DNA of 64,000 nt, taken from assembly GCF_021155765.1 (NCBI RefSeq), contig NC_060107.1, positions 131,501 to 195,500 on the forward strand, given 5' to 3'. The stretch's first letter is position 1; the number at the start of each line of letters is the position of its first letter. Source of the DNA: Diprion similis (taxonomy: Eukaryota > Arthropoda > Insecta > Hymenoptera > Diprionidae). The translations under genes were made by a program, and so were the position numbers. Below the pieces are notes generated by a model. That model had not been told where the DNA came from. It searched no databases and saw only the letters and a program-made list of their open reading frames with translations. Shown in pieces: positions 9,100 to 57,400 of the stretch.

Positions 9100-12000
9100 A
9101 AATCCAAAGGGGTTAGCCTTACTTTTTTGGTCCTTTGCAAAGCCGAAAATTTTTCGTTTTGGAATCGATTTGTACGACCATTTCTAGACTAATTCGACTA
9201 TCAGGAACGCGGAAAACACGGCAAAAACTGCGTTGGATAAACAGCAGAGAAATGGCGATGAAAATTTTCAGTTTTTCGGCTGTAACTTTTGATGCGTTGA
9301 TCGCAGCGTATTGGGACTGCGGTCAATCGATTTCTCTCGCAAAATTGCGTCGGAATAGTGCCTTATCGAACTGATTGCAGCACTTCCCAAATTCGTCGAA
9401 ATTTTCGCCAAAAATCCAAAGGGGTTAGCCTTACTTTTTTGGTCATTTTTGGACACTAAAATTTCTCGTTCTGGGATTGATTTGTACGACCATTTATAGA
9501 CTAATTGGACCCCCAGGAACTCAGAAAACACGGCAAAAATAGCGTTGGATGAACAGCAGAGAAATGGCTATGAAAATTTCCAGTTTTTCGGCTGTCACTT
9601 TTGATGCGTTGATCGCAGCGTGATGGGACTGCGGTCAATCGATTTCTCTCGCAAAAATACGTGGGAATAGTGCCTCATTAAATTGAATGCAGCACTTTTT
9701 GAAATCGTCGAAATTTTCGCCAAAAATCCAAAGGGGTTAGCCTTACTTTTTTGGTCATTTTTTGAGTCTGAAATTTTTCGTTCCGGAATTGATCTGTACG
9801 ACCATTTCTAGACTAATTGAACCCTCAGGAACTCAGAAAACACAGCGAAAACAGCGTTGGATGAACAGCAGAGAAATGGCGACGAAAATTTCCATTTTTT
9901 CTGCTGTAACTTTTTATGCGTTGATCGCAGCGTATTGGGACTGCGGTCAATCGATTTCTCTCGCAAAAATACGTCGGAATAGTGCCTTATTGAACTGATT
10001 GCAGCACTTTTCAGAATCGTCGAAATTCTTGCCAAAAATCCAAAGGGGTTAGCCTTACTTTTTTGGTCCTTTGCAAAGCCGAAAATTTTTCGTTTTGGAA
10101 TCGATTTGTACGACCATTTCTAGACTAATTCGACTATCAGGAACGCGGAAAACACGGCAAAAACTGCGTTGGATAAACAGCAGAGAAATGGCGATGAAAA
10201 TTTTCAGTTTTTCGGCTGTAACTTTTGATGCGTTGATCGCAGCGTATTGGGACTGCGGTCAATCGATTTCTCTCGCAAAATTGCGTCGGAATAGTGCCTT
10301 ATCGAACTGATTGCAGCACTTCCCAAATTCGTCGAAATTTTCGCCAAAAATCCAAAGGGGTTAGCCTTACTTTTTTGGTCATTTTTGGACACTAAAATTT
10401 CTCGTTCTGGGATTGATTTGTACGACCATTTATAGACTAATTGGACCCCCAGGAACTCAGAAAACACGGCAAAAATAGCGTTGGATGAACAGCAGAGAAA
10501 TGGCTATGAAAATTTCCAGTTTTTCGGCTGTCACTTTTGATGCGTTGATCGCAGCGTATTGGGACTGCGGTCAATCGATTTCTCTCGCAAAAATACGTGG
10601 GAATAGTGCCTCATTAAATTGAATGCAGCACTTTTTGAAATCGTCGAAATTTTCGCCAAAAATCCAAAGGGGTTAGCCTTACTTTTTTGGTCATTTTTTG
10701 AGTCTGAAATTTTTCGTTCCGGAATTGATCTGTACGACCATTTCTAGACTAATTGAACCCTCAGGAACTCAGAAAACACGGCGAAAACAGCGTTGGATGA
10801 ACAGCAGAGAAATGGCGACGAAAATTTCCATTTTTTCTGCTGTAACTTTTTATGCGTTGATCGCAGCGTATTGGGACTGCGGTCAATCGATTTCTCTCGC
10901 AAAAATACGTCGGAATAGTGCCTTATTGAACTGATTGCAGCACTTTTCAAATTCGTCGTAATTTTCGCCAAAAATCCAAAGGGGTTAGCCTTACTTTTTT
11001 GGTCCTTTTCGAAGCCGAAAATTTTTCGTTTTGGAATCGATTCGTACGACCATTTCTAGACTAATTCGACTATCAGGAACGCGAAAAACACGGCAAAAAC
11101 AGCGTTGGATAAACAGCAGAGAAATGGCGATGAAAATTTTCAGTTTTTCGGCTGTAACTTTTGATGCGTTGATCGCAGCGTATTGGGACTGCGGTCAATC
11201 GATTTCTCTCGCAAAATTGCGTCGGAATAGTGCCTTATCGAACTGATTGCAGCACTTCCCAAATTCGTCGAAATTTTCGCCAAAAATCCAAAGGGGTTAG
11301 CCTTACTTTTTTGGTCATTTTTGGACACTAAAATTTCTCGTTCTGGGATTGATTTGTACGACCATTTATAGACTAATTGGACCCCCAGGAACTCAGAAAA
11401 CACGGCAAAAATAGCGTTGGATGAACAGCAGAGAAATGGCTATGAAAATTTCCAGTTTTTCGGCTGTCACTTTTGATGCGTTGATCGCAGCGTGATGGGA
11501 CTGCGGTCAATCGATTTCTCTCGCAAAAATACGTGGGAATAGTGCCTCATTAAATTGAATGCAGCACTTTTTGAAATCGTCGAAATTTTCGCCAAAAATC
11601 CAAAGGGGTTAGCCTTACTTTTTTGGTCATTTTTTGAGTCTGAAATTTTTCGTTCCGGAATTGATCTGTACGACCATTTCTAGACTAATTGAACCCTCAG
11701 GAACTCAGAAAACACGGCGAAAACAGCGTTGGATGAACAGCAGAGAAATGGCGACGAAAATTTCCATTTTTTCTGCTGTAACTTTTTATGCGTTGATCGC
11801 AGCGTATTGGGACTGCGGTCAATCGATTTCTCTCGCAAAAATACGTCGGAATAGTGCCTTATTGAACTGATTGCAGCACTTTTCAGAATCGTCGCAATTC
11901 TTGCCAAAAATCCAAAGGGGTTAGCCTTACTTTTTTGGTCCTTTGCAAAGCCGAAAATTTTTCGTTTTGGAATCGATTTGTACGACCATTTCTAGACTAA

Positions 12001-12843
12001 TTCGACTATCAGGAACGCGGAAAACACGGCAAAAACTGCGTTGGATAAACAGCAGAGAAATGGCGATGAAAATTTTCAGTTTTTCGGCTGTAACTTTTGA
12101 TGCGTTGATCGCAGCGTATTGGGACTGCGGTCAATCGATTTCTCTCGCAAAATTGCGTCGGAATAGTGCCTTATCGAACTGATTGCAGCACTTCCCAAAT
12201 TCGTCGAAATTTTCGCCAAAAATCCAAAGGGGTTAGCCTTACTTTTTTGGTCATTTTTGGACACTAAAATTTCTCGTTCTGGGATTGATTTGTACGACCA
12301 TTTATAGACTAATTGGACCCCCAGGAACTCAGAAAACACGGCAAAAATAGCGTTGGATGAACAGCAGAGAAATGGCTATGAAAATTTCCAGTTTTTCGGC
12401 TGTCACTTTTGATGCGTTGATCGCAGCGTATTGGGACTGCGGTCAATCGATTTCTCTCGCAAAAATACGTGGGAATAGTGCCTCATTGAATTGAATGCAG
12501 CACTTTTTGAAATCGTCGAAATTTTCGCCAAAAATCCAAAGGGGTTAGCCTTACTTTTTTGGTCATTTTTTGAGTCTGAAATTTTTCGTTCCGGAATTGA
12601 TCTGTACGACCATTTCTAGACTAATTGAACCCTCAGGAACTCGGAAAACACGGCGAAAACAGCGTTGGATGAACAGCAGAGAAATGGCGACGAAAATTTC
12701 CATTTTTTCTGCTGTAACTTTTTATGCGTTGATCGCAGCGTATTGGGACTGCGGTCAATCGATTTCTCTCGCAAAAATACGTCGGAATAGTGCCTTATTG
12801 AACTGATTGCAGCACTTTTCAAATTCGTCGTAATTTTCGCCAA
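9100..12843 (+). repeat. Higher-order repeat block, period 936 bp (three monomers)
   Basis: Inside the array, three monomer types alternate so that near-identical sequence returns every 936 bp. One type carries AAAATTGCGTCGG (in the units near 9,340, 10,276, 11,212 and 12,148). A second has CTATGAAAATTTCCAG followed by ACGTGGGAATAG. A third has GACGAAAATTTCCATTTTTTCTGC. A private change, CGTGATGGGACT in place of CGTATTGGGACT, occurs at 9,619 and again at 11,491. These are 1,872 bp apart, and the copy between lacks it, which points to a still longer unit of six monomers. Confidence 0.85.
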
Positions 12844-14899
12844 AAATCCAAAGGGGTTAGCCTTACTTTTTTGGTCCTTTTCGAAGCCGAAAATTTTTCG
12901 TTTTGGAATCGATTCGTACGACCATTTCTAGACTAATTCGACTATCAGGAACGCGGAAAACACGGCAAAAACAGCGTTGGATAAACAGCAGAGAAATGAC
13001 GATCAAAATCATTGGATTTTCGGATGTAACTTTTGATGCGTTGATCGCAGCGTATTGGGACTGCGATTAATGGATTTCTCTCGCAAAAATACGTCGGAAT
13101 AGTGCCTCATTAAATTAATTGCAGCACTTTTCAGAATCGTCGAAATTTTCGCCAAAAATCCAAAGGGGTTAGCCTTACTTTTTTGGTCATTTTCAAAGCT
13201 GAAAATTTTTCGTTTTGGAATCGATTTGTACGACCATTTCTAGACTAATTCGACTATCAGGAACGCGGAAAACACGACAAAAACAGCGTTGGATAAACAG
13301 CAGAGAAATGGCGATGAAAATTTTCAGTTTTTCGGCTGTAACTTTTGATGCGTTGATCGCAGCGTATTGGGACTGCGGTCAATCGATTTCTCTCGCAAAA
13401 ATACGTCGGAATAGCGCCTTATCGAACTGATTTTAGCACTTTCCAAATTCGTCGAAATTTTTGCCAAAAATCCAAAGGGGTTAGCCTTACTTTTTTGGTC
13501 CTTTTCAAAGCCAAAAATTTTTCGTTTCGGAATCGATTTGTACGACCATTTCCAGACTAATTCGACTTCCAGGAACTCGGAAAACACGGCAAAAATAGCG
13601 TAGGATCAACAGCAGAGAAATGACGATCAAAATCATTGGATTTTCGGACGTAACTTTTTAGCTATTCCTCGCAGCGTATTGGGACTGCGATTAATGGATT
13701 TCTCTCGCAAAAATACGTCGGAATAGTGCCTCATTAAATTAATTGCAGCACTTTTCAGAATCGTCGAAATTCTCGCCAAAAATCCAAAGGGGTTAGCCTT
13801 ACTTTTTTGGTCCTTTGCAAAGCCGAAAATTTTTCGTTTTGGAATCGATTTGTACGACCATTTCTAGACTAATTCGACTATCAGGAACGCGGAAAACACG
13901 GCAAAAACTGCGTTGGATAAACAGCAGAGAAATGGCGATGAAAATTTTCAGTTTTTCGGCTGTAACTTTTGATGCGTTGATCGCAGCGTATTGGGACTGC
14001 GGTCAATCGATTTCTCTCGCAAAATTGCGTCGGAATAGTGCCTTATCAAACTGGTTGCAGCACTTCCCAAATTCGTCGAAATTTTCGCCAAAAATCCAAA
14101 GGGGTTAGCCTTACTTTTTTGGTCATTTTTGGACACTAAAATTTCTTGTTCTGGGATTGATTTGTACGACCATTTATAGACTAATTGGACCCCCAGGAAC
14201 TCAGAAAACACGGCAAAAATAGCGTTGGATGAACAGCAGAGAAATGGCTATGAAAATTTCCAGTTTTTCGGCTGTCACTTTTGATGCGTTGATCGCAGCG
14301 TATTGGGACTGCGGTCAATCGATTTCTCTCGCAAAAATACGTGGGAATAGTGCCTCATTAAATTGAATGCAGCACTTTTTGAAATCGTCGAAATTTTCGC
14401 CAAAAATCCAAAGGGGTTAGCCTTACTTTTTTGGTCATTTTTTGAGTTTGAAATTTTTTGTTCCGGAATTGATCTGTACGACCATTTCTAGACTAATTGA
14501 ACCCTCAGGAACTCAGAAAACACGGCGAAAACAGCGTTGGATGAACAGCAGAGAAATGGCGACGAAAATTTCCATTTTTTCTGCTGTAACTTTTTATGCG
14601 TTGATCGCAGCGTATTAAGACTGCGGTCAATCGATTTCTCTCGCAAAAATACGTCGGAATAGTGCCTTATTGAACTGATTGCAGCACTTTTCAAATTCGT
14701 CGTAATTTTCGCCAAAAATCCAAAGGGGTTAGCCTTACTTTTTTGGTCCTTTTCGAAGCCGAAAATTTTTCGTTTTGGAATCGATTCGTACGACCATTTC
14801 TAGACTAATTCGACTATCAGGAACGCGAAAAACACGGCAAAAACAGCGTTGGATAAACAGCAGAGAAATGGCGATGAAAATTTTCAGTTTTTCGGCTGT

Positions 14900-17350
14900 A
14901 ACTTTTGATGCGTCGATCGCACCGTATTGGAACTGCGGTAATCGATTTCTCTCGCAAAAATACGTCGGAATAGTGCCTCACTAAATTAATTGCAGCACTT
15001 CTCAGAATCGTCGAAATTTTCGTCAAAAATCCGAAGGGGTTAGCCTTACTTTTTTGGTCATTTTTTGAGTCTAAAATTTTTCGTTCCGGAATTGATTTGT
15101 ACGACCATTTCTAGACTAATTGAACCCTCAGGAACTCAGAAAACACGGCGAAAACAGCGTTGGATAAACAGCAGAGAAATGGCCACGAAAATTTCCATTT
15201 TTTCTGCTGTAACTTTTTATGCGTTGATCGCAGCGTATTGGGACTGCGGTCAATCGATTTATCTCGCAAAAATACGTCGGAATAGTGCCTTATTGAACCG
15301 ATTGCAGCACTTTTCAAATTTGTCGAAATTTTCGCCAAAAATCTAAAGGGGTTAGCCTTACTTTTTTGGTCATTTTTGGACACTCAAATTCTTTGTCCTG
15401 GAATTGATTTGTACGACCATTTCTAGACTAATTGGACCCCCAGGAACTTAGAAAACACGGCAAAAATAGCGTTGGATGAACAGCAGAGAAATGGCGATGA
15501 AAATATTCAGTTTTTCGGCTGTCACTTTTGATGCGTTGATCGCACCGTATTGGAACTGCGGTAATCGATTTCTCCCGCAAAAATACGTCGGAATAGTGCC
15601 TCACTAAATTAATTGCAGCACTTCTCAGAGTCGTCGAAATTTTCGCCAAAAATCCAAAGGGGTTAGCCTTACTTTTTCGGTCATTTTTGGACACCAAAAT
15701 TTTTTGTCCTGGAATTGATTTGTACGACCATTTCTAGACTAATTGGACCCCCAGGTACTTAGAAAACACGGCAAAAATAGCGTTGGATAAACAGCAGAGA
15801 AATGGCTATGAAAATTTCCAGTTTTTCGGCTGTCACTTTTGATGCGTTGATCGCACCGTATTGGAACTGCGGTAATCGATTTCTCCCGCAAAAATACGTC
15901 GGAATAGTGCCTCACTAAATTAATTGCAGCACTTCTCAGAGTCGTCGAAATTTTCGCCAAAAATCCAAAGGGGTTAGCCTTACTTTTTCGGTCATTTTTG
16001 GACACCAAAATTTTTTGTCCTGGAATTGATTTGTACGACCATTTCTAGACTAATTGGACCCCCAGGTACTTAGAAAACACGGCAAAAATAGCGTTGGATA
16101 AACAGCAGAGAAATGGCTATGAAAATTTCCAGTTTTTCGGCTGTCACTTTTGATGCGTTGATCGCAGCGTATTGGGACTGCGGTCAATCGATTCCTCTCG
16201 CAAAAATACGTGGGAATAGTGCCTCATTAAATTGATTGCAGCACTTTTTGAAATCGTCGAAATTTTCGCCAAAAATCCAAAGGGGTTAGCCTTACTTTTT
16301 TGGTCATTTTTTGAGTCTAAAATTTTTCGTTCTGGAATTGATTCGTACGACCATTTCTAGACTAATTGAACCCTCAGGAACTCAGAAAACACGGCGAAAA
16401 CATCGTTGGATGAACAGCAGAGAAATGGGAACGAAAATTTCCATTTTTTCTGCTGTAACTTTTTATGCGTTGATCGCAGCGTATTGGGACTGTGGTCAAT
16501 CGATTTCTCTCGCAAAAATACGTCGGAATAGTGCCTCACTAAATTAATTGCAGCACTTCTCAGAGTCGTCGAAATTTTCGCCAAAAATCCAAAGGGGTTA
16601 GCCTTACTTTTTCGGTCATTTTTGGACACCAAAATTTTTTGTCCTGGAATTGATTCGTACGACCATTTTTAGACTAATTGGACCCCCAGGTACTTAGAAA
16701 ACACGGCAAAAATAGCGTTGGATAAACAGCAGAGAAATGGCTATGAAAATTTCCAGTTTTTCGGCTGTCACTTTTGATGCGTTGATCGCAGCGTATTGGG
16801 ACTGCGGTCAATCGATTCCTCTCGCAAAAATACGTGGGAATAGTGCCTCATTAAATTGATTGCAGCACTTTTTGAAATCGTCGAAATTTTCGCCAAAAAT
16901 CCAAAGGGGTTAGCCTTACTTTTTTGGTCATTTTTTGAGTCTAAAATTTTTCGTTCTGGAATTGATTCGTACGACCATTCCTAGACTAATTGAACCCTCA
17001 GGAACTCAGAAAACACGGCGAAAACATCGTTGGATGAACAGCAGAGAAATGGGAACGAAAATTTCCATTTTTTCTGCTGTAACTTTTTATGCGTTGATCG
17101 CAGCGTATTGGGACTGCGGTCAATCGATTTCTCTCGCAAAAATACGTCGGAATAGTGCCTCACTAAATTAATTGCATCACTTCTCAGAATCGTCGAAATT
17201 TTCGCCAAAAATCCAAAGGGGTTAGCCTTACTTTTTCGGTCATTTTTGGACACCAAAATTTTTTGTCCTGGAATTGATTTGTACGACCATTTCTAGACTA
17301 ATTGGACCCCCAGGTACTTATAAAACACGGCAAAAATAGCGTTGGATAAA
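14900..17350 (+). repeat. Satellite subfamily with a one-base-shorter (311-bp) unit
   Basis: Units near 14,930, 15,550 and 15,860 read CGCACCGTATTGGAACTGCGGTAATCG where the usual unit has CGCAGCGTATTGGGACTGCGGTCAATCG, giving 311-bp spacing between the units starting near 15,428 and 15,739. Units near 15,678, 15,990, 16,613 and 17,237 share TTTTTCGGTCATTTTTGGACACC. The copies around 16,311 and 16,935 are nearly identical at 624 bp. This marks a local, younger amplification within the array. Confidence 0.7.
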
Positions 17351-18459
17351 CAGCAGAGAAATGGCTATGAAAATTTCCAGTTTTTCGGCTGTCACTTTTG
17401 ATGCGTTGATCGCAGCGTATTGGGACTGCGGTCAATCGATTTCTCTCGCAAAAATACGTAGGAATAGTGCCTCATCAAATTGATTGCAGCACATATTGAA
17501 ATCGGCGAAATTTTTGCCAAAAAATCCAAAGGGGTTAGCCTTACTTTTTTGGTCATCTTTTGAGTCTAAAATTTTTTGTTCCGGAATTGATTTGTACGAC
17601 CTTTGTTAGACTAATTGAACCCTCAGGAACTCAGAAAACACGGCGAAAACAGCGATAGATGAACAGCAGAGAAATGGCGACGAATATTTCCATTCTTTCG
17701 GCTGTAACTTTTTATGCCTCGATCGCAGCGTATTGAGACTGCGGTTAATCGATTTCTCTCGCAACAATACGTCGGAATAGTGCCTCATTAAATTGATTGC
17801 AGCACTTTTTGGAATCGTCGAAATTTTCGCTAAAAATCCAAAGGGGTTAGCCTTACTTTTTTGGTCATGTTTTGAGTCCAAAATTTTTTGTTCCGGAATT
17901 GATTTGTACGACTATTTCCAGACTAATTGAACCCTCAGGAACTCAGAAAACACGGCGAAAACAGCGATGGATGAACAACAGAGAAATGGCGACGAAAATT
18001 TCCATTCTTTCGGCCGTAACTTTCGATGCGTTGATCGCAGCGTATTGGGACTGCGGTCAATCGATTCCTCTCGCAAAAATACGTGGGAATAGTGCCTCAT
18101 TAAATTGATTGCAGCACTTTTTGAAATCGTCGAAATTTTCGCCAAAAATCCAAAGGGGTTAGCCTTACTTTTTTGGTCATTTTTTGAGTCTAAAATTTTT
18201 CGTTCCGGAATTGATTTGTACGACCATTTCTAGACTAATTGAACCCTCAGGAACTCAGAAAACACGGCGAAAACAGCGTTGGATGAACAGCAGAGAAATG
18301 GCCACGAAAATTCCCATTTTTTCTGCTGTAACTTTTTATGCGTTGATCGCAGCGTATTGGGACTGCGGTTAATTGATTTCTCTCGCAAAAGTACTTTGGA
18401 ATAGTGCCTCATTAAATTGATTGCAGCACTTTTTGATATCGGCGAAATTTTCGCCAAAA

Positions 18460-18900
18460 ATCCAAAGAGGTAAGTCTTACTTTCTTAGTCATTTTTGGAG
18501 CCGAAAATTTTTTGTCTCGGAATCGATTTGTATGGCTATCTCTAGAGTAATTCGACCCCCAGGAACTCAGAAAACACGTGAAAAAGAGCCACGGGCCAAC
18601 AGCAGAAAAATGACCATGAGAATTTCGAGTTTTTCGGCTACAACGCTCAGTCCGTTGCTCGCAGCCCATTCCAACTGTGCGCGATCGATTTCTCTCGCAA
18701 AATTACGTTGATATCGTGCAACTAAGAATTGATCCGTTTTTGATTTTTTAAAATTGCTTAAACTTTCACCAATATGCAAAAGCGTCCGACATCACTTCGT
18801 TCGGGACTTTTAGAGCAATTATTTTTTTGTCTCGGAATCTCTTTATGCGCCGTTTTCTAGACTAATTTGGTGATCCTCAGGTGATTCAAAAAAGACATTC
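18460..18900 (+). repeat. Decayed distal edge of the satellite array
   Basis: After about 18,460 the landmark is altered (CCAAAGAGGTAAGTCTTACT) and substitutions rise sharply. A last recognisable piece is near 18,825-18,890 (TTGTCTCGGAATCT, then TTCTAGACTAATTTGG and CCTCAGGTGATTC). The left edge at 4,825-5,170 is likewise diverged. Decay at both ends with homogeneous middle copies is the usual outcome of unequal exchange. Confidence 0.7.
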
Positions 18901-19755: not shown

Positions 19756-22203
19756 ATGGTTGACATTAGAAGTCAGGATGACGCTGAGCATGACAAGAAA
19801 TTCGAGCGAGAGCCGGGTTATAGTTGTGGAACTGGTGCTTCCACCCCATCCTCTCTGTCTGATTATGTCATGAGTGAAGCCGATGACAGTTCCGACAGTA
19901 GATGTGCTGCACCGTTTACATTGAGATCCATTGAAACGCAACTTGTCTTGACAAGGGTAAGTCTTTGGTATTACGAATGTCGAGATTTATCAATGATATA
20001 GAAAATGCTTGAAATCATTTCCTATTTTGTAAAATTATCAATACAATCAATACGTGACAGGATGCTACGCCAACGGATCTGCGGGAGATGGTCAAACGTT
20101 GTAAAGAGATGGTGATGGAAAGTGCAGAATGCAGTGAAGAACGCAAGTGGCTTGTTAGACGTCTAATTGAATTACGTCTGCGGGCTCAAGAACTAAGAGA
20201 AGTATCCAGTGAGAATCTATTGGAAACGTGCGTTATCTTAGGACATCATTTGGTACCGCAAAAAAATCACGCAGTCACGTATGGGCCAATTTATTGCGAT
20301 AATTGTAGCGCCGCTGTGTGGACAATGCTTCAATCCTGGTACATGTGTAATGGTAAGATCGCAGTTATGAATTATAATTAATCATTCGAACATTGGGGCT
20401 TGAAGCAATATATTTATTTACTTCACTCTTTATAATTGATCAACATTGTTCAATGATTATGCTTCATGTCAAAGTGTTATGTTGACTTCTATGAAATTGT
20501 GTATGAATTTTCGTAAATGTTGATATCAAACCAATAGTGTTACGTTCAAGATTGCGGATTTTGCTGTCATGCGAAGTGTCTAAGCGCCACCTGCCGCGTC
20601 TGTGCGCATGTTGTCGCAAGCGAAGCTGGTGGATATACATTTACCAAGGATATATGCCCTGAGCGTGGTCTCTCCGCACAGTCGTACAGATGCGCCGAAT
20701 GCAATGCCAGCATAACGTTTAGTAAGCAATGACAATTAATGCCTGCACATCTAAAATGATGGTCAACTTCATAGTCAATTAAAGTTACCTATTTATTAAT
20801 ACATCAGATTACACCATTGATGAACTCGAAAAAATCAGATTGACTCTGTTCACACATTATAGTGTAATAAATTACTTGTGTACCTACATTGATACACTGT
20901 TTTTCCCACAAGCTTTCTCCAAAGGATTATTTCTGTCGTGTTTTGGAAGTCCCTTCAAATACACAGGTATATGCTAAGGGTTGCATAGCTGTTACTTTTC
21001 AGCACGTCAAGTTTGAAATGATGTACGCTTGTATCTTGTTAATCCGGTATACGTGTTTAAGTTGATTTCACATGAAATTTAATGGTTGATGTAATTGTTT
21101 GATATTCTTTTACTAGAGGCGGCCTGGATAGAACCACGCCTTTGTGACTATACTGGGCTGTATTATTGTCAACGCTGCCATTGGAATACTACTGCTCCCA
21201 TACCTGCCCGCATAATTCGAAATTGGGATATGGAACCTCGAAAGGTATCGCGAGCAGCAGCTCAGCTGTTGGAAATTCTAGAACAGCGTCCAGTCTTGAA
21301 TCTAGAGCAGCTAAATCCAAAATTATTCACATTGGTTCCAGATTTGTCGCTGGTCAAGGTAAAATTGGCGTTTCTAAAGCACGAAATGAAAATACGTGAA
21401 ATTATAATTGCCATGATAAATCTCACAGAATTATAGGCGATTTATGTAAACTCAACCAAGTCCTGACCCTCATATTATTTATTTTTCCCGAAATTTTTCG
21501 GTCGAGTTGACATGGAATGCCGCATACATACCACGTTTCCTCATTTGAATGCATACTTTTATTTTAGAAGCTACGTGAAGAATTGCAGATGATTAAACGG
21601 TACCTGGTATTTTGCCCAAATGCAAATAACGAAGGATTGCCATGGCGTGCTGGCTTGCGCTCACACATGGTAGAAAACTCTGGAAGCTACGCGATCAAAG
21701 ATTTAATTGATCTTCAGAATGGAACGCTTATAGAGGAAATTCGAGCTGCGCATGATGCTATGCGTACACATATCGCAGAACACTGTAATTTGTGCAGAGC
21801 AAGGTTAGCAAAAATGTATTTGCCATGGTATTTACCACATTTAATGAATACATATTCTTCTGATAATATTTAACGTTAATTCATTGCTCTATGCTGTCAT
21901 CTTTCATTACTTATTTTACGTTACAGGGGTCATTTGTGCGAGTTATGCGGTAATGATGAAGTCATATATCCTTGGGATGCTGGTTCCATTTCTTGTCCTG
22001 AGTGTTCGACAGTCTATCACCGTGCTTGCTGGTCAAAGCGCAACCATCATTGTTCAAAATGTTCTCGTATTCAGAAGCGACTTGCTCTAAACCAATGGCA
22101 GGAAGACGGTGATTCGCAGGCTGCCGTACAAATAGATGAGGCAAAAGGTACTTCCGAGTTTATAGTTTCTGAAATGATTATTATCAACAACCCTAAAATG
22201 TAA
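19756..22203 (+). CDS. DEF8: Differentially expressed in FDCP 8 homologue (DEF8), Rubicon-homology zinc protein
   Basis: Six exons join in phase: 19756-19956, 20061-20352, 20551-20721, 21117-21358, 21568-21803, 21927-22203, giving about 472 residues. All introns are GT-AG. The first ATG is at 19756. After an acidic N-terminus and a helical segment comes a C1-type zinc finger (about 129-185: HHLVPQK, CDNCSAAVW, CNDCGFCCHAKC). The Rubicon-homology region follows (about 190-425: CPERGLSAQSYRCAECN, CDYTGLYYCQRCHWN, IPARIIRNWDMEPRKVSR) and ends in a cysteine/histidine cluster (HCNLCRARGHLCELCG, CPECSTVYHRACW, HHCSKCSR). In vertebrates DEF8 acts with PLEKHM1 and RAB7 in lysosome positioning and osteoclast ruffled-border formation. 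All zinc ligands I can line up are present and the length is normal. The extreme C-terminus after the last CxxC is not conserved and its end is less sure. Confidence 0.93.
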
Positions 22204-35461: not shown

Positions 35462-37658
35462 CTAAATCTGTGGTCGTAGCTGGAAAAGCAGATCCACCAC
35501 AGCTTCGTCGGCCAGAGTTGATGTGTCCCCAACGTTTCTGTCGCCGACAGCTATTTTTCGTAATATACGCCGCATAATTTTCCCCGTACGCGTTTTCGGC
35601 AGGCTAGGGGCATGCTGAACAACATCCGGTTGAGCGAAGGGCCCTATCCTTTCTCGTACTGAAACGAAGAGAAAAGGAAAATTAAAAATCAGTTCAATTC
35701 TTGGGCTGTAAAACAAAGAAACGTAGATTTTGCATCAAGGAGGCAAAGTAGGTTTTTTCACGACAAAAAAACGAACATTTCATTTCAGCTGCATGGGATG
35801 TGTTTGGTAAATATCATATTTACGAGTGTGCTGAATCCAAAAATAACTTCCATTCCCTTCCATCACGTACATTATTTTTGCAAAATACAAGGTGTCTGCA
35901 TAAAAAAAGCATACTAATAATGAAAAAACCAGCATTTCATTGAAATGAAGTAAACAATATTGTTCACAAAATTGAATAAACAATTTCTTCATGAAGTGTA
36001 CTTAACATTCTGTCTTCACTCTTTTTCCCTATGAAATCTTTGCTTCTAATCTTTTATACTTCTCCGAACACGCTTCCACTTTCCATTTTCTATTTTCCTG
36101 TTTGTATTTATTCTTAAGTCTCGTTCTAGTACATATTAAATAGAAGTAAGAAATGAATTTTGCATAGGATTTTCAGAACCAAGAACAGGCTACCAGATTT
36201 CAAATTATACGGGATTTTCACTCTAAACGAAACTACAAAGACGAGTTCAAGGGAAATCCTGACGTGATGGAGTTTTTTGAGTATTTCTGAAACGATTACT
36301 TTGACTACGGAACGCGGGAAAAAAGACGCGTAAACTATACTTGCGTCAGATACAGATCAATCGTAACGATCAAATATAGGATTTTTTGTGGAAAATTCAC
36401 GTAGGTATATATATATCACATCCATACAATTATCTGTCGTAGAGCGATGAGTGATAATGATATGCACCTTTTATCTTCAATTCGTCCTGCAGCTTTCGGT
36501 CAAACGGCGCGTCCTGGTTCGGCGTAATGAAGCAGTAAAGACATTGGCCCTTGACCGGATGTGGCCTGCTTACCACAGCTGCTTCCGCAACGGCTTCGTG
36601 CTCGCTCAAGACACTCTCAACTTCGGCAGTGGACATCAAATGCCCGGACACATTCAGCATGTCATCTACGCGGCCTGTCACCCACAAATAACCATCGGCG
36701 TCTCGTTTCGCACCTGTTGGCATATTTCAAGAATCGTTTCATTTCCACCGTAGGCCTTTATCGATGTAGAGTACCTATAGCGGGAGGAATGTCGGTGGGT
36801 AACTTTTTTTGAATTTCGTAAACTGTGAGATCCCAAATTTTCTAACCCGTCGACTCAGTTTTTACGCGAGAGGCGAGGCAATGTGAAACAAAGCAGTTCA
36901 GCTTCCTCGCGAGGATGCATCTATTAGGCCATGAAGAGCTTGGAATAATTAGAAAAAAATATGTCCGCGTAACTGCTTAAAAATTTCATCGCTTCAACCT
37001 TTCGACAACACCCCCTACCATCATTTCGACAGTCTGAAAAATTATTCCACGTCAACATGCCTATCCAGAAATTAAAAGCCCGACAAATATTCGACTCTCA
37101 CGGCGACCCAACACTCGAAGTTGATCTCGTGACCGATATTGGACTTCTGCGATCCTCCGTCCCCTGTGTTTTCTCGCCTAACCCAAACGAAGCTACCGAA
37201 CTGCGGGACAACAACGAAGCCTCGTACAACGGCCGATCGGTATTCAAAGCAGTTGAAATCATCAACAACACCATAGCTCCGGAGCTTCTTCGCTCGAAGC
37301 TTGAAGTATGTCAGCAGCGCGAAATTGATAATCTGATGACAAGCCTGGACGGAACTGACAACAAGTCAAGGCTTGGAGCAAACGCAATTCTCGCTGTCTC
37401 TGTCGCCTGCTGCAAGGGTGGCGCGGCAAAAAGGGGCCTTCCGCTTTACAGATATATCGCTGAATTGTCAGAAAACACGGAAATAATTATTCCCGTACCA
37501 GCGTTCAATGTAATCAGCGGCGGAAAATATGCTGGAAATTCTCTTGCTTGTCAGGAATTTATGATCCTACCTACAGGTATGTACAGACACACATCGCATT
37601 GAGAGCAACGACTTTAGTAGTAGTAGTAGTAGTAGTAGTAATAATAATAATAATCAGA

Positions 37659-37696
<38 letters not shown>

Positions 37697-40600
37697 AATA
37701 AATAAATACACAGTGTATAGAGTACGTACAATGGTATGTATTTACATACGTTGGTATAATTGGGTGGAACCTACATATGACCTTTGTGTAGCACGAGGAA
37801 TGAAATTGGCTAATAGGATTTCATTTATCCTTCGTTTCGCAAGGTGCGGAAAGTTTTGCCGATGCGATGAAAATGGGCACCGAAGTATTTCGCGTCATAG
37901 AGCGAAAACTTGGCGAACAACAAGATGCGAAACTACCGTTACCGGTAGGCGACGAAGGTAGCTTTATGCCCGAGTTAGAAGACGACAAGGAAGCTTTGTC
38001 TATAATAGACGATGCGATTAAAACGGCGGGCTACGATGGAAAAATTAAAATTGCTCTGGACATGGCAGCATCAACATTTTGCAAGGATGGTTGGTAGCGC
38101 TTGGAAAATTTATCACAACTGTTAGTAACACGTGTGTCTGGTCTACCGAGGCCAACGATGCTGCATTTGGGTAATTGAATCACAGCGTTAGTGTTAAGAT
38201 GTTTTGAGTGTGAGATCGTTGACCGTGAACCGATAGCGTTTTTATTTGGAATTATTAATTAAATTTGGGATTTCTCGTGAAATGACAAGCTCTGTGGTTA
38301 TATTTTGCAAATCATTCGATTATTAATTCATATCACAATTTATCAATCCTATCTGACTAGAATGCACTTTCTAAAATCAAAACGATCGTATCATACAAAA
38401 TTTCAAATCGAATCGCCGTTTTACAAAACAACGAGATGAATTCTCGCAAAAATTCTTTAATCGGTCGGGTGACACAACACTGAAAACACCTCGATACAAA
38501 ATCACGTCGTTGATTTTATCAAACGCGGAAGTAACTGTTTTAATGCAATACAGTACTCGCGCGGTGCAGATCTTTGACTTGTTAAACGAAAATGTGACAG
38601 GGTATTTTCGAGCAACTGCACTCAAATTCCAGTAATTTTGGAAAACGAATTTGGCTGAATTATACTCGATTTAATTGCATGATGTAGCAAGGCATGTACG
38701 ATTTGTCGAGAGATTATGTCGAAACAAATCCAAATGACAACCCGTAGAAAAGTGTCATTCATGCACGTTAAATCTTATACGCAATTGACACAATTGTACA
38801 CGCGATATAGCTACACATAATTCGAAGCAGTCTTGTTTCTTAATTTTATTTATTTCAATTTATAGAATAAGTTCGCCCTGCTCAAAGGGCTTCTCAAGAA
38901 ACTAATGACTTGTCTCTTTTATTGTTTGCTGGAAGGCAAGTGGTGTGATTCGTTTCCATATAATCTACCTGTATACTTCGATTCTCGGAGTCTAACGACT
39001 TATTCAACGGAGATCAGAGTCAGGATGATGAGAATCATATACATATAACTTCTCCTACTGACTCACTTTTCCACTACTGTGAATAACACATGCATATTAT
39101 ATGCATCAGGGCAGTACGATTTATCCTTCAAGAGCGAAGATTCCGACCCGAGTGATTATATTGAGGCGGAAGAGCTCCGCGATCAATACTTGGAGTACAT
39201 GAACGAGTTTCCAGCGATCGTATCGATAGAGGATCCATTTGATTTGGAGGATTGGGACGGGTGGCCGATGTTGAGCGACCAGTCAATTCAAATCGTCGCC
39301 GACGATTTAACGGCAATGAACATCGAACGTATAGAGGAAGCGATTGAAAAACAAACCGCGAACTGTCTACTGATCAGGTTACCTCAGATTGGAACTGTTA
39401 CGGAGGCAATAAATTGTAATCGATTGGCGCGGACCAGTGGCTGGAGTTGTCTGATGTCGGGAGGTTACGGAGAAACTGAAGATACTTTTATAGCAGATAT
39501 GGCCGTCGGCATCTCCGCGGGTCAGCTGAAGGCCGGGGCTCCGTGTCGGAGCGAGAGAATGGCGAAATACAATCAAATTTTGAGGATCGAAGAAGAGTTG
39601 GGGAAAGATGCTAAATATGCCGGCAACAATTTTAGGTATCCCTTCAGCAAGTACAAATAGCTGCTGATGCGGTTGAATTAAAATTTCAGGCAGAGAATAA
39701 ACAGTGACTTTATAATCATAAGTATGATTTATGCATATTAATTTCTATTTTAACTACTGAATGCTGGTAAATTGGGAAGAAACGAACGGTAGCCAAGTCA
39801 TCGATCATTCTCTGTTTTTGTCTGTATCAATGCTTGAGTAATTAAAATACATGTATAAAGTAGTACAAATTTTTTCCCACTCACCGTCTCCTGTGCAGTA
39901 ATAGCCGTGAAATTTTGAGAAATAAGTTGACTGGAATCTTTCGTGATTTCCAAACAATGTCCTCGTCATACCCGGCCACGGCTTGCCGAAGACTAAAAAA
40001 CCTTCACCTTCGCCATTGATCACGGTACCATCTTCATCGAGAAGTTCCGGTGAAACGCCAAAAAATGGAAGCGCCTGGAAAATGCATATTTTCTCCATAA
40101 ATAATTGCAAACGCGTAAATTTTCATACGGATTAACTGAAATGTCTTAAACATTTTGGGCGCGAGGACGATCGTTTTTAGTCTAACGTATTAGAAGAAAC
40201 CAATTTTGCATAATGTTTCCTTTTGCCACTCGAAAGAACAGTACGGGTCTTTGATGATATAAAAATTTATTCGTGGTAATTGTTTGGGGCATTTTTTTTT
40301 CAAAACACGCAGTATGTAAACAAAAACTTGCCAATAGATGGTATTTATCGTTATTGTGGTGTGTCTATTGGCACTTGGCCCCCAATCAGGTGCTTGTCTA
40401 CAATTCCTGCGGCCTTGACAATGATTGTAGTACGTATAATATAAAAATGGCGATGGTGCAGGCAACGCAGGAACATGTGGCGCGCTCACTATCCCATACG
40501 ACAACGTACCAGCAAACATTTGTGATTACTTTTAGGCAACTTGCCGCTTTCTGACTATCAGGCGTCTCGAGCGTCGAAAAGGTATTCGACTTGACGTCTT

Positions 40601-43600
40601 GCTTACTCGATTTGACGCGATCCACACACGAGGTACAGCCTTTTCTATTAGCGTTACCTTTGGTTACGTACCAATTGACACGTCAAATCCCTGAACTGAG
40701 TCAATATGGGCATCATTGAAATGGGCATCAATTTGCACGTCTCTTAGCCTTCCACCATCGCGGTAATTAATGGGTACGGGTGGTTGACTTACCGCGGATC
40801 CGGGTTTCATAGGCGTCGCCCCCGGGAGCGGCGTGATTACGTGACCGCCAGTTTCGGTCTGGAAGAATGTGTCGGCGATACTGCATTTGCCGCCACCGAC
40901 GACGTTATAATACCACAGCCATGCTTCAGAGTTGATGGGCTCTCCAACCGATCCGAGGACCTGAATTGTTAATAACTTAAGTTTCAATAAAACTTTTCCT
41001 TCTCGGCATTGTTTTTTCCTCTATTTATAGGTAATAAAGATTCTTCAGTCCATACCTAATAACAAAACGTTGTATCTGATAAGCAATTACACGTCACCTT
41101 TAATGTTGTAAGATCATGTTTCTTTAGCAAGTCATCTCCAAACTTCATCAGTGACCTCAGAACGGTCGGTGCTGTGTAGAATTGCGTAACCTTATATTTA
41201 TCAACTATGGACCAGTATCTGTCATTCTCCGGATAAAACGGTGTCCCTTCAAACTGTAATAAAACACAGAAAAAGCTATTCTCATTGTTTGACAGTAATA
41301 GTGAGCGTATACTAGTTATAAAATACATTATTGGCATAATCTAATAGCCCGAAAAGTAGTACTATTTTCGAAAAAAATGGACTTTGAATCGACTAATGAA
41401 ATTCGGATTGGTCCAAGATAGATTAACGTGTTAAGGAAAAGTTTCTATGTTCGTTACGCCTTACCAATACAGAGGTGGCACCGTTCGCTAATGGACCGTA
41501 GACAACGTAAGTATGACCTGTGATCCATCCAATGTCAGCTGTACACCAATAAACATCGCCCGGATGATAATCGAAAACATATTTGAACGACGTAGCGGCA
41601 TAAATGAGATATCCGGCTGTAGTGTGGAGAACTCCTTTCGGTTTCCCCGTCGAGCCACTGTGGTAAAACAGACGTCGTTGACAACAATAATGTCCGGAAA
41701 TTAACGGATATCGGGTACATACGTATGAGAAATTTATGCACGCATTTCACGCATTTTAATGACGATCGCGATAGGTCAGACATACGATACGATAAAATCA
41801 ATTGTACCTAGTGTATAAAATAAATAGAGGATCTTCAGCAGCCATCCATACTGGGTAACAGCGAGAGTCAACGTCTTCCATCTCTTCATGCCACCAAAAA
41901 TCTCGATCCTCTATCCAGGCAATCTCAAAATCGTTGGATCTCGGGTTATTTTTTCGCGTACCATTCGTAGATCCATTTGTACCATTTACGCCGACACCTT
42001 CTAATGAAAATTAATTTAATTCGCCACACATCCGCCTAAGAGTGTATTATAGATGATATCAATGAAAGAAACAAGAATAAAATACGTATGTATGGATATA
42101 CATATATCTACATCACGTGATTTCACTCGGAGAGTGAAGTAATCTTACCACTGGATTCTGATTTATTCATAGTGTTGCTGAGCCTTTGAAGATGTGAAAC
42201 TACTATACAGCTTTCTACCAAGTGTCCGCTATTTTTCGCCTTTTCCAAAGCATCGTCGCATATACGTTTTAGGTTCAGCAGTTTTTCACCACGCCATACG
42301 CCGTCCGCAGTTATAAGGATTTTTGATTTTGATTCAAGCATGCGCTCTGCCAGTGAATCCGACGAGTATCCTGCAAACTATTCGCAAGGCAAAATTAGAC
42401 AGAGACCGGGGTTACTGCCTCTGCTCCGTATTCTGCACGCATATAGGATATATTTATCCATTCACTGCTTAGTGTGTTGTACAACGTGTCGTATCATACT
42501 TTCTGTACAAGTCGATGGCACACGGTGTACTGTAGGCTAATTGTAAACCACAACTTACAGTTACGACGTTAACTTGGCTATCAGTTAGCCAAACATTGTT
42601 GGTACCAGCCCGCGTCATGTTGTATAAATTTATAACGTCAAAACTGAGTCTCGATAAAAGTCCGAACTTACCACAATGTTGTGAGTGGCACCTATTCTCG
42701 TGCACGCAAGCATGGCAATGGGCAATTCGAGAATCATTGGCATATAAATTGCCACGCAATCGCCTTTGGCTACACCTTTCGATTTCAAGACATTGGCAAA
42801 TCTGCAAACCTCTTCAAGCAGTTTTCTGTATGTAAGCCGAGAGTAGTCATCCGGATGATTACCTTCCCTGTACAGAGAAACCGGTTGGTATATTCTTCGT
42901 TTGTAACGTTGCACCCTCAATTATTTAACGCAGACTCGGCTCTTGCGTTCAAACGCTACGGCCATCTTTTATCTTAAAGTCAGATGTAATAAGCGCACAA
43001 TGAGAAATCTGGCCTGCATTCCATAGAGGTTCTTCCGTAATTTACACCAAATTTACCTGTCACCGTATTACACGGATTATCATTATCATATTTGGGGCTT
43101 CTTTGATTCCGATTGCTTGACATACCTACACCTACTATAGTTGCATAGAATAAATGACATTGGACGAGAAATTTTTACGGGTATTTCATGTATATCGCCA
43201 GATTCGTGCTGCTTGAAATATTTGCCTGAGAATGATGTATAAACACGTGCAATTTGACATTTGACATGATGCGCGATATGTCACATCGTATGTTCATTAC
43301 TCGCGGCTGAAGGTTAAAGTGGTAACGCCTCCTCATTGCGGTTGAGAGGGGAGAAAAATAGGCAAAAAACGTGAACATCAACGTAAATTAAATTCCTGCA
43401 AATACCTATATAATAGATATATAAACGCGAAGACTGTCACTCTTGACGTAAGCGATTCCCCGGTTGCATTAATTAGTATGTAAAAGCTTCTTTAAACAGG
43501 TGTTTACTCACAAGTATGTACGCGAGTTATTTTAATTTCAGGGTGAAACCTTCATTTTTTCTGATCCACAGTTTGACGTTCTGTTTCTTACGTATTAGTT

Positions 43601-49729: not shown

Positions 49730-51529
49730 ATGTTACGTCTTTGGATCATCGCAGCCTGTGCGGCTACAGCCGTATTCGCCGAAGTAGACAGATTCGACAA
49801 TTACAAGGTGTTCGCTGTAACTCCCAACACCACAGCTCATTTGGATTTACTTAGGGAACTCGGTGAAACTGAAAACGGCGTAAGTCACTCCTTTACTACC
49901 TTTACCCACTGAAATATCTTGAAAGATTGACTCGCATCGAAAGAAGAAACACGAGCAGGGCAAAACCTATATGTACGCATCATTATCAAATTAACATGTG
50001 TAACAATGTTATTTCTTTGACGCGCAGTTTGATCTATGGAACAATCCAGCTCGTCTGAATGCACCGGTTCACATTATGGTGCCACCGCATCGGCTTTACG
50101 AATTCGAAGAATACATGGACGTAGTGGGCGCCCATTACACGACCTACATTGAAGACGTGCAGAAATTAATAGACGCTGAGAAAGGCCCGTTGCAGTTACG
50201 GGACGGCAGTTTCGGGTGGACGAGCTATTATACTTTGAATGAAATCTACGAATGGCTGGAATCCTTGGCCGTCAAATATCCGGAAAACGTCGAAGTGGTG
50301 GTGGCTGGCTCGACCTACGAGGGTCGTGAAATAAAGGGCATCAAAATATCATTTGGGTCCGACAATCCTGGGATCTTCATCGAAGGTGGAATCCACGCTC
50401 GTGAATGGATTTCACCAGCAACCGTGACGTATATCATCAACGAACTTTTGACTAGCACAGATCCCGACGTCAGAGAATTGGCTGATCGCCATGACTGGTA
50501 CATTTTTCCCGTTTTCAATCCAGACGGTTACGTGCACACACATGACAGTGTAAGCCTGATTCTTTTTCATAATAGGCTAAAAAAACAGCAAGATATTGAC
50601 GAATGCCTCGATCAAATCCTTGGACTAATAATACTTTACTTTTAATACGACAGAGCCGTTTGTGGCGCAAGACGCGATCCCGAGTGAGCGCCTTATGCCG
50701 TGGAGCTGATCCGAATAGAAATTGGGGATTCCAGTGGAACAGTAAGGAATTTTCAATTGAAACTAGTAACAGAAATCGTGAACTAGAGACAAACGAACAA
50801 AGGCTTCACGATATGTCCTGAAATTTTCAGCCGGTGGCGCGAGCAGCCTGCCCTGCGTGGACACGTACGCTGGTTCAGCACCTTTTTCTGAAATTGAAAC
50901 CAAATCCGCATCCGAGTACATAGACTCTATTAGCGATAAATTCTACGCGTACATATCGTTTCACAGTTACACCCAGTTGTTACTCATACCATACGGACAC
51001 TCCACGGAGCATTTAGACAACTACGACGAATTGGCAAGTATACCTACACGTACACCATGTTTATCAATGTGACAATGTTGAACAAGGGGAGACATGTAAT
51101 TTGGGTATTTATCTGTTTCGTGCAGTTGGAGATTGGACTCATTGCTGCGGATGCTCTCCAACAGAGATACGGAACAACGTACACGGTCGGAAATATTGCC
51201 GAAACTATTTGTAAGTACGAAAATCAGTTTAAATGTGGAATTTCCAAAAATTTGCATGTACTGGAAATTTGCAAACAGTCGTTCCACGGAAAATTTGAAA
51301 GTAAATTTTGACGATCAACTCGATCCAAACAGATGTTGCCACTGGAGCATCCGTAGACTGGGTTAAGGCCACGTACAATACGCCCATCACCTACATTTAC
51401 GAATTGAGGGATCTTGGCCAATGGGGATTCCTTTTACCCGCCTCGCAAATTATACCCACTGGGGAAGAAACTCTGGACTCACTCGTGGCGATGTTCAAGG
51501 CTGCCAAGGCACGTGGACACGGTGTATAA
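49730..51529 (+). CDS. Secreted zinc carboxypeptidase A-like (M14A), with propeptide
   Basis: Six exons join in phase: 49730-49879, 50028-50549, 50654-50741, 50831-51033, 51126-51210, 51333-51529, giving 414 residues. Residues 1-17 ([17 protein letters not shown]) are a signal peptide. An activation propeptide runs to about 105, followed by the peptidase domain. Zinc ligands are H173 and E176 (GGIHAREW) and H298 (SFHSYTQ). Substrate-carboxylate binding residues are N245/R246 (DPNRNWGF) and Y350 (IYVATGAS), and the catalytic glutamate is E373 ([11 protein letters not shown]). The position equivalent to bovine residue 255 is valine (V357), which favours carboxypeptidase A specificity for hydrophobic C-terminal residues. 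It is likely a gut digestive zymogen. All catalytic residues are intact. The fourth intron (after 51033) starts GCAAGT, a GC donor, while the others are GT-AG. Confidence 0.95.
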
Positions 51530-54033: not shown

Positions 54034-54497
54034 TGTTAGCGAAATGAAAGCTACGGTACATATTGTATGTACGAATGCATTGAGCGCTTTGTCAAGATCG
54101 TTTAATTTTGACGGTTAAAAAAATGCTTGTAACAGCAAGAGTCCTGAAATTTTGTAAAAACGTTTTTTTCCATTTTTTACTTTGATGTGTATGTAATCAT
54201 ATTGACCTGTAAGGCCTTGATCAAACGGTTCAAGCGACATTTCTGAATGTCGCGACGAAAGAAATCCCAGTGTGTTCTTACGGTTCGATGCAGAGTCATT
54301 TTTATGCAAATTGATCTATTATTATGCTATCGTTTTTTGCCAACTTCATTCATATAATGGTAGCCTGATTTTACTGCGCGGTAAAAGAACGCGAACAAAT
54401 CGAGGTTCCAAGGTACATTAGACGATGAAAATTGCATGTTATTTCAGGGCTGATAATTGGAAGTTAAACAGTTTTCAAGAATCAAACAGTTTTGAAA
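54034..54497 (+). other. Upstream region of the Myb/SANT-like gene
   Basis: About 460 bp between the MITE and the ATG. No TATA box is clear. Promoter and 5' UTR are presumed here. Confidence 0.35.
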
Positions 54498-57400
54498 ATG
54501 CCACCGTCGAACGCGATGGAAAATGATAAAAAAAGATTGCGAAATCAATTCACCAAAGACGAGCGAACACGACTTTTGGCCATCATGGGGGAATACGGAC
54601 CTCTGCTTGACGATAAAAATATATCAATCCTCAGCCGTAAAGAGATTTGGGAAATCATTGAGAACAAGTTTAATGAGAATGGCCATTCTGGTCGTACTTC
54701 GGCACAGCTCAAGAAGTATTGGCAGAATTACAAATACCACAGCAAACGTGCCAAGATTACCCATAAGGTAATCCACATCATCTGTACATGTAGCTCCAAA
54801 TGTATAATAACGTTTGCTTACAGATTGTTAGACACTTGGGTCTTAGATTTTTATCATTCTCAGAATATGCTGACGAGTTTTGTTTCTTGCAAACGCTAGG
54901 AAACCCCAAAGACTATGAGTCCGACGACGCGGAAAATGGTTAAAATGTTAGCCAAGGTGAACCCTGAAGAGTGGGCGCAATACGACGTTAAAGTTAACGT
55001 GGCATCTAAAAAACAACCAGCAGAATCACCAAAGCCATCTCCTTCGTTGGCAACCTACTCTTCGCCGCTGTTTTGTAGCGGCTTAAACACTGCGGTATCC
55101 GAACGGCGGGAAGAAGACTATTCACCGATTATCAGAAAACTTAATGTTCCACCTCAGAGACATTTCAAGTCGTTCGCCGCTGAGCGTGAGAACGATTGCA
55201 TTTTCACGTCCATACACCCGACGCCTTGCATATTATATCACGTTTATAATTTTGTCTGAAATTGTTGCAGCATTTTCGTCCGCACATGAACCAACGATAA
55301 TATCAAGATGCGAAGGTGTTTGCGTTAAGGATAAAAATAAAATTTCTGAAAGCGATTTGAGAGTTTCGACGACAGACGGTCAGGACCAGGGTAGCAGTGT
55401 TACGGTCTCGGTAATATGTCCAGAAGTTCCATCGCAAATTCGATCCATTTTCAGGAAAAGAAACATGCCTCTGGAGAAAGATGGCTCGAATTTCGGATCG
55501 AGTTACGCCAATGAAAAGGAGCGCGTTACAGAGGGGAGAAATTCACCCGACGGCTTCCGTCATGTCGGTAGGCCGATACGACAGACTAATGGCAACGATT
55601 CCCTTGTTGTTAACGACGCACATCGACACGGTATCATTGGAATGTTTGAAGCAAGTAAACCTGAACGCCTGGCGTTGAACAGGTTGAATTTTTTCGAGAG
55701 GAGGTGCGGAGGATACGATCAGCCGCCGGCAGTGGGTGAACCGTTAGATCAATACGCGGCGATATCTCGTCAAATAGCGAGTGAAAAGCAAATGCTCATA
55801 AATACAATAGAGGCGACAACGAACATGGAGAATAAATATGATTTCGTTAGAAATTTGCAGACCGATTGTGAAATCGTTGACGAAACACCAACCGCCATGG
55901 GTGATCTATCAAGGGATTGTCATTCAATGGATAAATTTTGTACGCCTTCGGCGATAAATGAGGGAAATGATACGAGAATTGTAGGAATGGCTGCAAGTGC
56001 TGATACCGTATCGTCTAGAAGTAGTGTGAAAAAATCACCAGCCAGACAAGTTGTTAGAAACCTTAACAACGACACGGAAGACATTGATTACTCGGAGTTG
56101 AACGAACTACTGCAACAACTTGCCAACGTTCGGAGCTTCAAGCGTACGGAGATTCTCGACGATATTAGGAAGTTGACAGAGTCGTTCGGATTAGATGGGA
56201 GTGTTCATTCGGGAGTAGATACACGTGAGAGTTCAATCCCGTTTATTAGTGAAAAAAGCGAACCGGACGACATGAAAAATACGGCCAATTGTAAGGATTT
56301 AGGGACGCGGGATTTCTTACGATTGAAACTATATCTGAGGTTACTTCGAAGTGTTGGTCAACCTGGAAGTAGGTGGTACCTCGATATGCTGCAAACGATT
56401 CAGCCTCTTCTTTCTACTGCAAATGGTTCAATTGACAAGCGCAACACGGGCAAGGACGAAAGCAACGATAGCGATCAGACAAGAGGCGAACAGGGAAGAA
56501 CAGTGGACGACTATAGAAGGAACGCTGCAAACAGAGTAGACAATTTGAGAGTGAGGAGGGTATCGTCCATGACGCTCGCAGCTGTAGATGATGAAGTTCA
56601 ACGTGAGATTAAAGTGGAATCATCCGAGGAGGAACAAGAAACACCGCCCGTGACTTCTGGTTTGTTTAACGGTAGCCATAAAAGTATTTCCTTTCAAATT
56701 ATAGGTATAAAACGGATTAGCTGCGAATTGAATATTGCACGTAGGACATTTTGGTAATTTGACCTATTTCTTTGACTTCAAGCCAACAACACCGAGGAGA
56801 GTCGAGTGGTAAATTCCATCAGTTTTTTGGTAAAAGCAAAGCTGCAGTGTGCGAAATTGGAATTGGATCATCAGCTCAAACTACAAGAGTTAGAGGTATA
56901 ATTAATTTATCATCTCCAAGGGGGCGTTATTTTTGCAAAACAAAAATATTTGTCGTTATGAAACATATCATATTTGGGAAAAAGATGGAGGAGAAGACGT
57001 TGAAGGTGAAAATAGCCGAGATGACGGTTCACGAAACTAAACTACGAATCCAAGCTCTGATCGAGGAAAGGCTCCGTGGCAGAGAACTTGACGAATTACG
57101 CCTAGCCCAGATGAATGCCGAAAAAGTGAGTATGTTGTATGAAAACGGATATATACGAGAATGGTCGCGTGAAAAAACCACTTAAATATTTCTGAAATCT
57201 CTTCAGATTTGTAATTCTGCTGAAAACTCATAGTTATCCATATTTTACATGCCGGTATGGGTGTGCAGTTACATAAAAAGTACCCCAGAAATGTCCAGAA
57301 TATTCTTTCTATTCTTAATTGCGTCTTGTCCCGGGGCATTCATAAGTTATCGTCGAACGAAAGCTTAACTATCTAAACTGCTCAGTGTATGATCAATTGT

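Follow-up and report, generated by a model that had tools for sequence, protein, structure and literature searches.

An intronic enolase paralogue with an intact reading frame and a dismantled active site in an insect genome

A full-length enolase paralogue with an uninterrupted reading frame, here called enoX, was found inside an intron of an acetyl-CoA synthetase gene, and residues that serve catalysis in enolase are replaced in it while the primary metal ligands are kept. From comparison of sequences, enoX is rather likely to be a selectively maintained enolase pseudoenzyme that would act by binding or dimerisation. Its role is probably other than glycolysis, because the body of the protein is preserved while several parts of the chemistry are gone. 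The point of interest is the dismantled active site of enoX and not the duplication itself.

Gene model of enoX and its surroundings

The window (the whole stretch of DNA analysed, 64 kb in length) corresponds to C3:131501-195500 of a 269 Mb genome in 60 contigs. A full-length enolase paralogue had been placed at 37057..39660 by the first-pass annotation, with coordinates and a reading frame that proved right: three exons give a spliced coding sequence of 1317 nt (ATG to TAG, 0 internal stops, both introns GT-AG) and a protein of 438 aa (Table 1). The alignment with enolase is not free of gaps, as had been supposed, and contains short insertions or deletions around residues 192-206, 291 and 315 as well as three extra C-terminal residues. 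Pfam searches with the protein gave Enolase_N (5.5e-44) and Enolase_C (2.9e-112), and the NCBIfam model TIGR01060 'eno' (phosphopyruvate hydratase) scored 428 bits (cut-off 300); with both domains, this score, the primary Mg2+ ligands and S39, enoX belongs to the enolase family. Automatic annotation would label it 'enolase' on the TIGR01060 score, though the reaction should be absent. The top solved relative was PDB 5wro (537 bits, 57% identity), which we take to be a fly enolase, and the structure matches also included PDB 7n6g, presumably the Chlamydomonas ciliary central apparatus. Relative to the canonical enolase of the same genome (enoC, described below), enoX is more acidic (pI 4.5 vs 5.7), contains 10 cysteines vs 4 and 20 arginines vs 10, and has a single histidine (position 15) vs 6.

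The acetyl-CoA synthetase pieces were trimmed and joined by eye, exact splice sites being given for the enoX-bearing intron and the 5' part of the gene lying outside the map. The nine joined pieces correspond to residues 98 to 644 of a solved acetyl-CoA synthetase (E-value 9e-202), and the intron that holds enoX interrupts this protein between '...YYCTGDG' and 'AKRDADGY...'.

Elsewhere in the window, a 672-residue open frame at 2089-4104 (minus strand) matched WD40 families and probably encodes a WDR70 relative. Rubicon-homology (RH domain) exons were found at 21095-22200 (plus strand), perhaps starting from 20058, where the frame is without a Pfam match; we take this gene to resemble DEF8. 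Between the WD40 protein gene and the Rubicon-homology gene, 44 copies of a 312-bp satellite occupy about 14 kb (4907-18708). A zinc carboxypeptidase exon with activation peptide lies at 50004-50642 (plus strand), perhaps from 49568, and a Myb/SANT-like domain frame at 54468-54896 (plus strand) precedes an open frame of 556 residues at 55087-56754 (region to 57182). Within the 64-kb window, no RNA family at its gathering score and no tRNA was detected.

Table 1. Positions of enoX, its altered active-site segments and its host gene, numbered from the first base of the window
Feature	Position	Strand	Description
Acetyl-CoA synthetase (host gene)	35462..42920	-	Nine exon pieces in order; outer bounds are open-frame bounds
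Acetyl-CoA synthetase intron containing the entire enoX coding region antisense	36714..39884	-	3,171 bp, GT-AG
enoX exon 1	37057..37576	+	Residues 1-173 plus one base; Enolase_N domain; loop 1 and loop 2 altered
Catalytic loop 1 of enoX	37165..37188	+	Canonical SGASTGVH replaced by CVFSPNPN; only the Mg-binding serine (S39) survives
H159 equivalent of enoX	37528..37530	+	Tyrosine (H159Y)
enoX intron 1	37577..37843	+	267 bp, GT-AG, phase 1; contains TAG and ATG trinucleotide runs
enoX exon 2	37844..38089	+	E211 and D246 equivalents kept
enoX intron 2	38090..39109	+	1020 bp, GT-AG, phase 1
enoX exon 3, including stop	39110..39660	+	E295, D320 and K396 kept; K345R, H373G, R374G, S375Y
K345 equivalent (general base) of enoX	39376..39378	+	Arginine (K345R)
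H373-R374-S375 equivalent of enoX	39460..39468	+	Gly-Gly-Tyr
AATAAA, candidate poly-A signal of enoX	39696..39701	+	First past the stop, 36 bases downstream; chance occurrence possible

Canonical enolase and copy number

Profile searches of the 269 Mb genome gave 6 matches with PF00113, from five candidates that were all scored, and 3 matches with PF03952, from four candidates that were likewise all scored. All matches (6/6 and 3/3) were confined to two loci, enoX and one further enolase at C4:26787387-26789198 on the minus strand. This canonical enolase has six coding exons and 434 residues, is identical to enoX at 264 of 438 aligned positions (60%), and is intact at every position checked (S39, H159, E168, E211, D246, E295, D320, K345, H373-S375 and K396). 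Alignment of the two, as the first-pass annotation had proposed, places the checked catalytic residues in the canonical copy and their loss in enoX. Glycolysis need not rely on enoX, because the canonical enolase keeps these residues.

Side observations were made in the same genome. Upstream of the canonical enolase (L020), frames recur with spacings that are multiples of 312 bp. Two loci of the vitellogenin family, at C10:21531497-21533840 (L021) and C1:6775316-6777658 (L024), carry long open frames and stretches rich in serine, with additional vitellogenin-family matches on other contigs; one vitellogenin exon is identical at 162 of 334 positions to the C-terminal part of PDB 9enr, presumably a honey bee structure, and this single comparison would fit a hymenopteran genome.

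Losses at the active site

The pocket residues of enolase comprise H159, E211, K345, H373-S375 and K396 in the portion of the account drawn on here (PMC9933520), and H159, E168, E211, K345 and K396 are listed as catalytic or ligand-binding in the corresponding portion of another (PMC4356359). The latter set is incomplete in enoX, which carries H159Y and K345R and keeps the other three, and the H373-R374-S375 triad of the phosphate and active site is absent. Also retained are the Mg2+ ligands D246, E295 and D320, together with S39 and Q167. The first-pass annotation had named K345R, H373G, H159Y and the loss of the loop-1 glycines and had stated that the metal ligands are kept, all of which was confirmed against the canonical and solved enolases; the loss is wider than it had described, taking in R374, S375, R15 (R15H) and the N that follows 'KV' in LLLKVNQ. 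Useful 2-phosphoglycerate turnover should not be expected of enoX, because K345, H373, R374, S375, H159 and the glycine lid are lost, as judged from enolase biochemistry.

Enolase is highly conserved among animals. For a count of invariant positions, enoX was aligned with the canonical enolase, four solved animal enolases (5wro, 8uel, 4za0 and 1pdy, the last of which we take to be lobster enolase) and 12 prokaryotic enolases, which remained from 13 prokaryotic loci after L010 was dropped (no usable frame). A position was scored as invariant when a single residue was present across all rows with a letter and at most two rows were gapped. The 17 other enolases have 94 invariant positions, 76 of which are retained in enoX and 18 lost (R15, S37, G38, A39, T41, G42, K60, H158, L192, K197, G318, V323, T324, K344, N346, H372, R373 and S374 in the numbering of the canonical copy, which differs by at most 1 from usual enolase numbering). 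Losses fell on 13 of 32 active-site positions vs 5 of 62 elsewhere (Fisher p = 0.0005), on an active-site list that was chosen after the losses were seen and that includes neighbours of catalytic residues; beyond this list, 57 of the 62 invariant positions are retained. When each of the five other animal enolases was scored against the remaining 16, losses were 0/94 for the canonical copy, 3/97 for 5wro, 0/94 for 8uel, 1/95 for 1pdy and 0/94 for 4za0. The loss of invariant positions from enoX exceeds chance, since 18 of 94 are lost there and 0 to 3 in the five other animal enolases.

Selective constraint

The dN/dS comparison proposed by the first-pass annotation was carried out with the in-genome paralogue, where 433 codons gave a saturated pS of 0.86 and a pN of 0.25; no numeric pairwise dN/dS is quoted because dS is saturated between enoX and the canonical copy. 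Neutral decay was simulated by letting the canonical coding sequence drift to 60% protein identity (transition/transversion factor 2, 60% AT, no indels, 300 runs). Stops arose in 300 of 300 runs (mean 9.0, minimum 2) and enoX has none; invariant sites left after neutral decay numbered 55 on average and 68 at most out of 94, and enoX has 76. Since enoX is without a stop and keeps 76 of 94 invariant sites, unlike the neutral runs, it was under constraint for most of its history, in a test that spans the entire branch since duplication and is blind to very recent loss of function. Decay as a simple pseudogene was rejected by the simulation as the main reading. An intact frame, a constrained scaffold and lost catalytic residues are the properties of a pseudoenzyme, and the pseudoenzyme suggested in the first-pass annotation appears sound with respect to the constrained scaffold and the dismantled catalytic residues.

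Origin of enoX

Trees were built leaving out six of the 12 prokaryotic enolases (L005, L006, L007, L009, L011 and L013). enoX, the canonical copy and 5wro formed a group with support of 80/81 when all columns were used and 84/85 without the active-site columns, and the enoX branch was long in both cases (0.68 vs 0.11 for the canonical copy with all columns; 0.57 vs 0.14 without the active-site columns). Identity of enoX as an ENO4 orthologue was considered and is not favoured by this grouping. A tree joining the five other animal enolases to the exclusion of enoX was not rejected (p-AU 0.073), nor was one joining four arthropod enolases to its exclusion (p-AU 0.18), and an origin of enoX in the insect lineage is moderately supported. 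Within the group, the best tree pairs enoX with the canonical enolase (68/53), the two other arrangements having p-AU of 0.21 and 0.31; shared changes (3 for enoX and enoC, 1 for enoX and 5wro, 3 for enoC and 5wro) were too few to help. Searches of genome_contigs with enoX exon 3 returned 13 prokaryotic enolases (41-51% identical) and no animal sequences, and searches of viral_contigs returned 1 stretch matching a pattern for exon 3 and 3 stretches for exon 1, with no relative among them.

The canonical enolase has five coding introns (after codons 21, 79, 131, 232 and 327), and enoX has its introns one base past codons 173 and 255 (phase 1). The two genes share no intron position, as is expected of a retrocopy, and because no position is common with the canonical gene, enoX is most likely an old retrocopy in which two introns were later carried or gained. 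A poly-A tract or target-site duplication from such an event would hardly survive at the present divergence. An older DNA duplicate with both intron loss and intron gain would be a tenable alternative.

What enoX may do

In the favoured course of events, an enolase copy would have entered the acetyl-CoA synthetase intron in the insect lineage and retained the sequence of both enolase domains together with the primary Mg2+ site, while proton abstraction (K345), the phosphate hold (R374, S375), H159/H373 and lid closure (loop 1) would all have been lost. Its product would then work by binding, most likely as a homodimer or paired with the canonical enolase, and such a dimer could anchor, regulate or scaffold a glycolytic enzyme or another partner. 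R9, E21 and the RIEEELG segment, which we take to be dimer-interface positions of enolase, are kept in enoX. What a role in binding only explains poorly is the survival of K396, E211, E168 and the full metal site, which exceed the needs of a pure scaffold, and because these residues persist, altered chemistry is a real rival. Under altered chemistry, enoX would be an enzyme that acts on a new substrate without a 2-phosphate group, in a different enolase-superfamily reaction with arginine at 345; the loss of phosphate-binding R374 and S375 and of the lid would suit such a substrate, and weak Pfam matches of enoX to MR_MLE_C and MAAL_C (both under cut-offs) point the same way. We consider it unlikely nevertheless, since a replacement base is not evident with H159 and H373 gone and the single histidine at position 15, and arginine in place of the general-base lysine usually abolishes the abstraction of the proton.

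The retained K396, E168, E211 and metal ligands, taken with a TIGR01060 'eno' equivalog score over its cut-off, could also indicate a low-activity isozyme with a weak enolase reaction, but K345, H159, H373, R374, S375 and the loop-1 glycines are lost together, and K345 single mutants lose activity by orders of magnitude, which makes residual enolase activity very improbable. That enoX is a pseudogene, or has recently lost its function and has no present role, would account for its fast branch and relaxed active site; this seems quite improbable for a sequence of 438 codons without stop or frameshift, in which synonymous change is saturated, pN is 0.25 and invariant sites outside the active site are largely kept (57/62). 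A binding or dimerising pseudoenzyme is the reading that we prefer. A more specific proposal, which we put forward as doubtful, is that this ancient insect pseudo-enolase in the acetyl-CoA synthetase gene would be a dead subunit that pairs with the catalytic enolase and tunes glycolytic output or anchors it (for example in the sperm tail). If true, it would be a natural means of poisoning a glycolytic enzyme at the subunit level or of targeting it. Restriction to testis, which the first-pass annotation had raised, and the exact role of enoX are guesses. Should enoX be conserved across the order, it would reveal what selection preserves of enolase once catalysis is dispensable and would offer a direct handle on the many proposed non-glycolytic roles of enolase.

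Comparison with known systems

The canonical enolase and 5wro resemble enoX in length (within five residues), in both domains, in the metal ligands and in overall sequence (60% and 57% identity, respectively). The canonical enolase differs in that it keeps the catalytic residues and has five introns in its coding sequence, at other positions; in enoX, the lid and five residues of the pocket are gone, and the coding sequence holds two introns. Mammalian ENO4 is a sperm enolase-like protein, a divergent paralogue with a proposed sperm role, and is longer and far more divergent than enoX; the trees moderately favour a separate insect origin of enoX.

Enolase duplicates have been reported in other insects. 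Two enolase genes are listed for the honey bee, in a 2:1:1 relation of Apis to Drosophila to Anopheles, in the part of PMC1847477 used here, and Table 4 of PMC9933520 counts 3 in T. castaneum, 2 in A. mellifera and 1 each in D. citri, A. pisum and D. melanogaster. On gene counts, the honey bee has, like the genome with enoX, an enolase duplicate, and loss of the active site is unmentioned in the relevant parts of these two papers. Because two enolase genes are reported in the honey bee, the duplicate may not be new, and enoX may represent an old one already listed in bees. Glycolytic proteins are reported to be enriched in the sperm of honey bees, with enolase more abundant but less active in stored sperm (PMC5238380); the portion of that report considered does not bear on enoX, because it leaves unspecified which enolase gene is concerned. 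Reports on enolase in queen larvae leave the genes unseparated in the passages taken from PMC2958119.

In a limited literature search (enolase pseudoenzymes, inactive enolase; including parts of PMC7435893 and PMC8928124), no description of a dead enolase paralogue was met. In Chlamydomonas, enolase forms part of the central apparatus of cilia (PMC8175508), a structural setting in which, in the part of that paper cited, it is not described as being without catalytic residues, unlike enoX. A further parallel is with delta1-crystallin and other metabolic pseudoenzymes, in which a duplicated enzyme has kept its fold and lost catalysis (from the section of PMC7435893 consulted); these belong to a different family from enoX.
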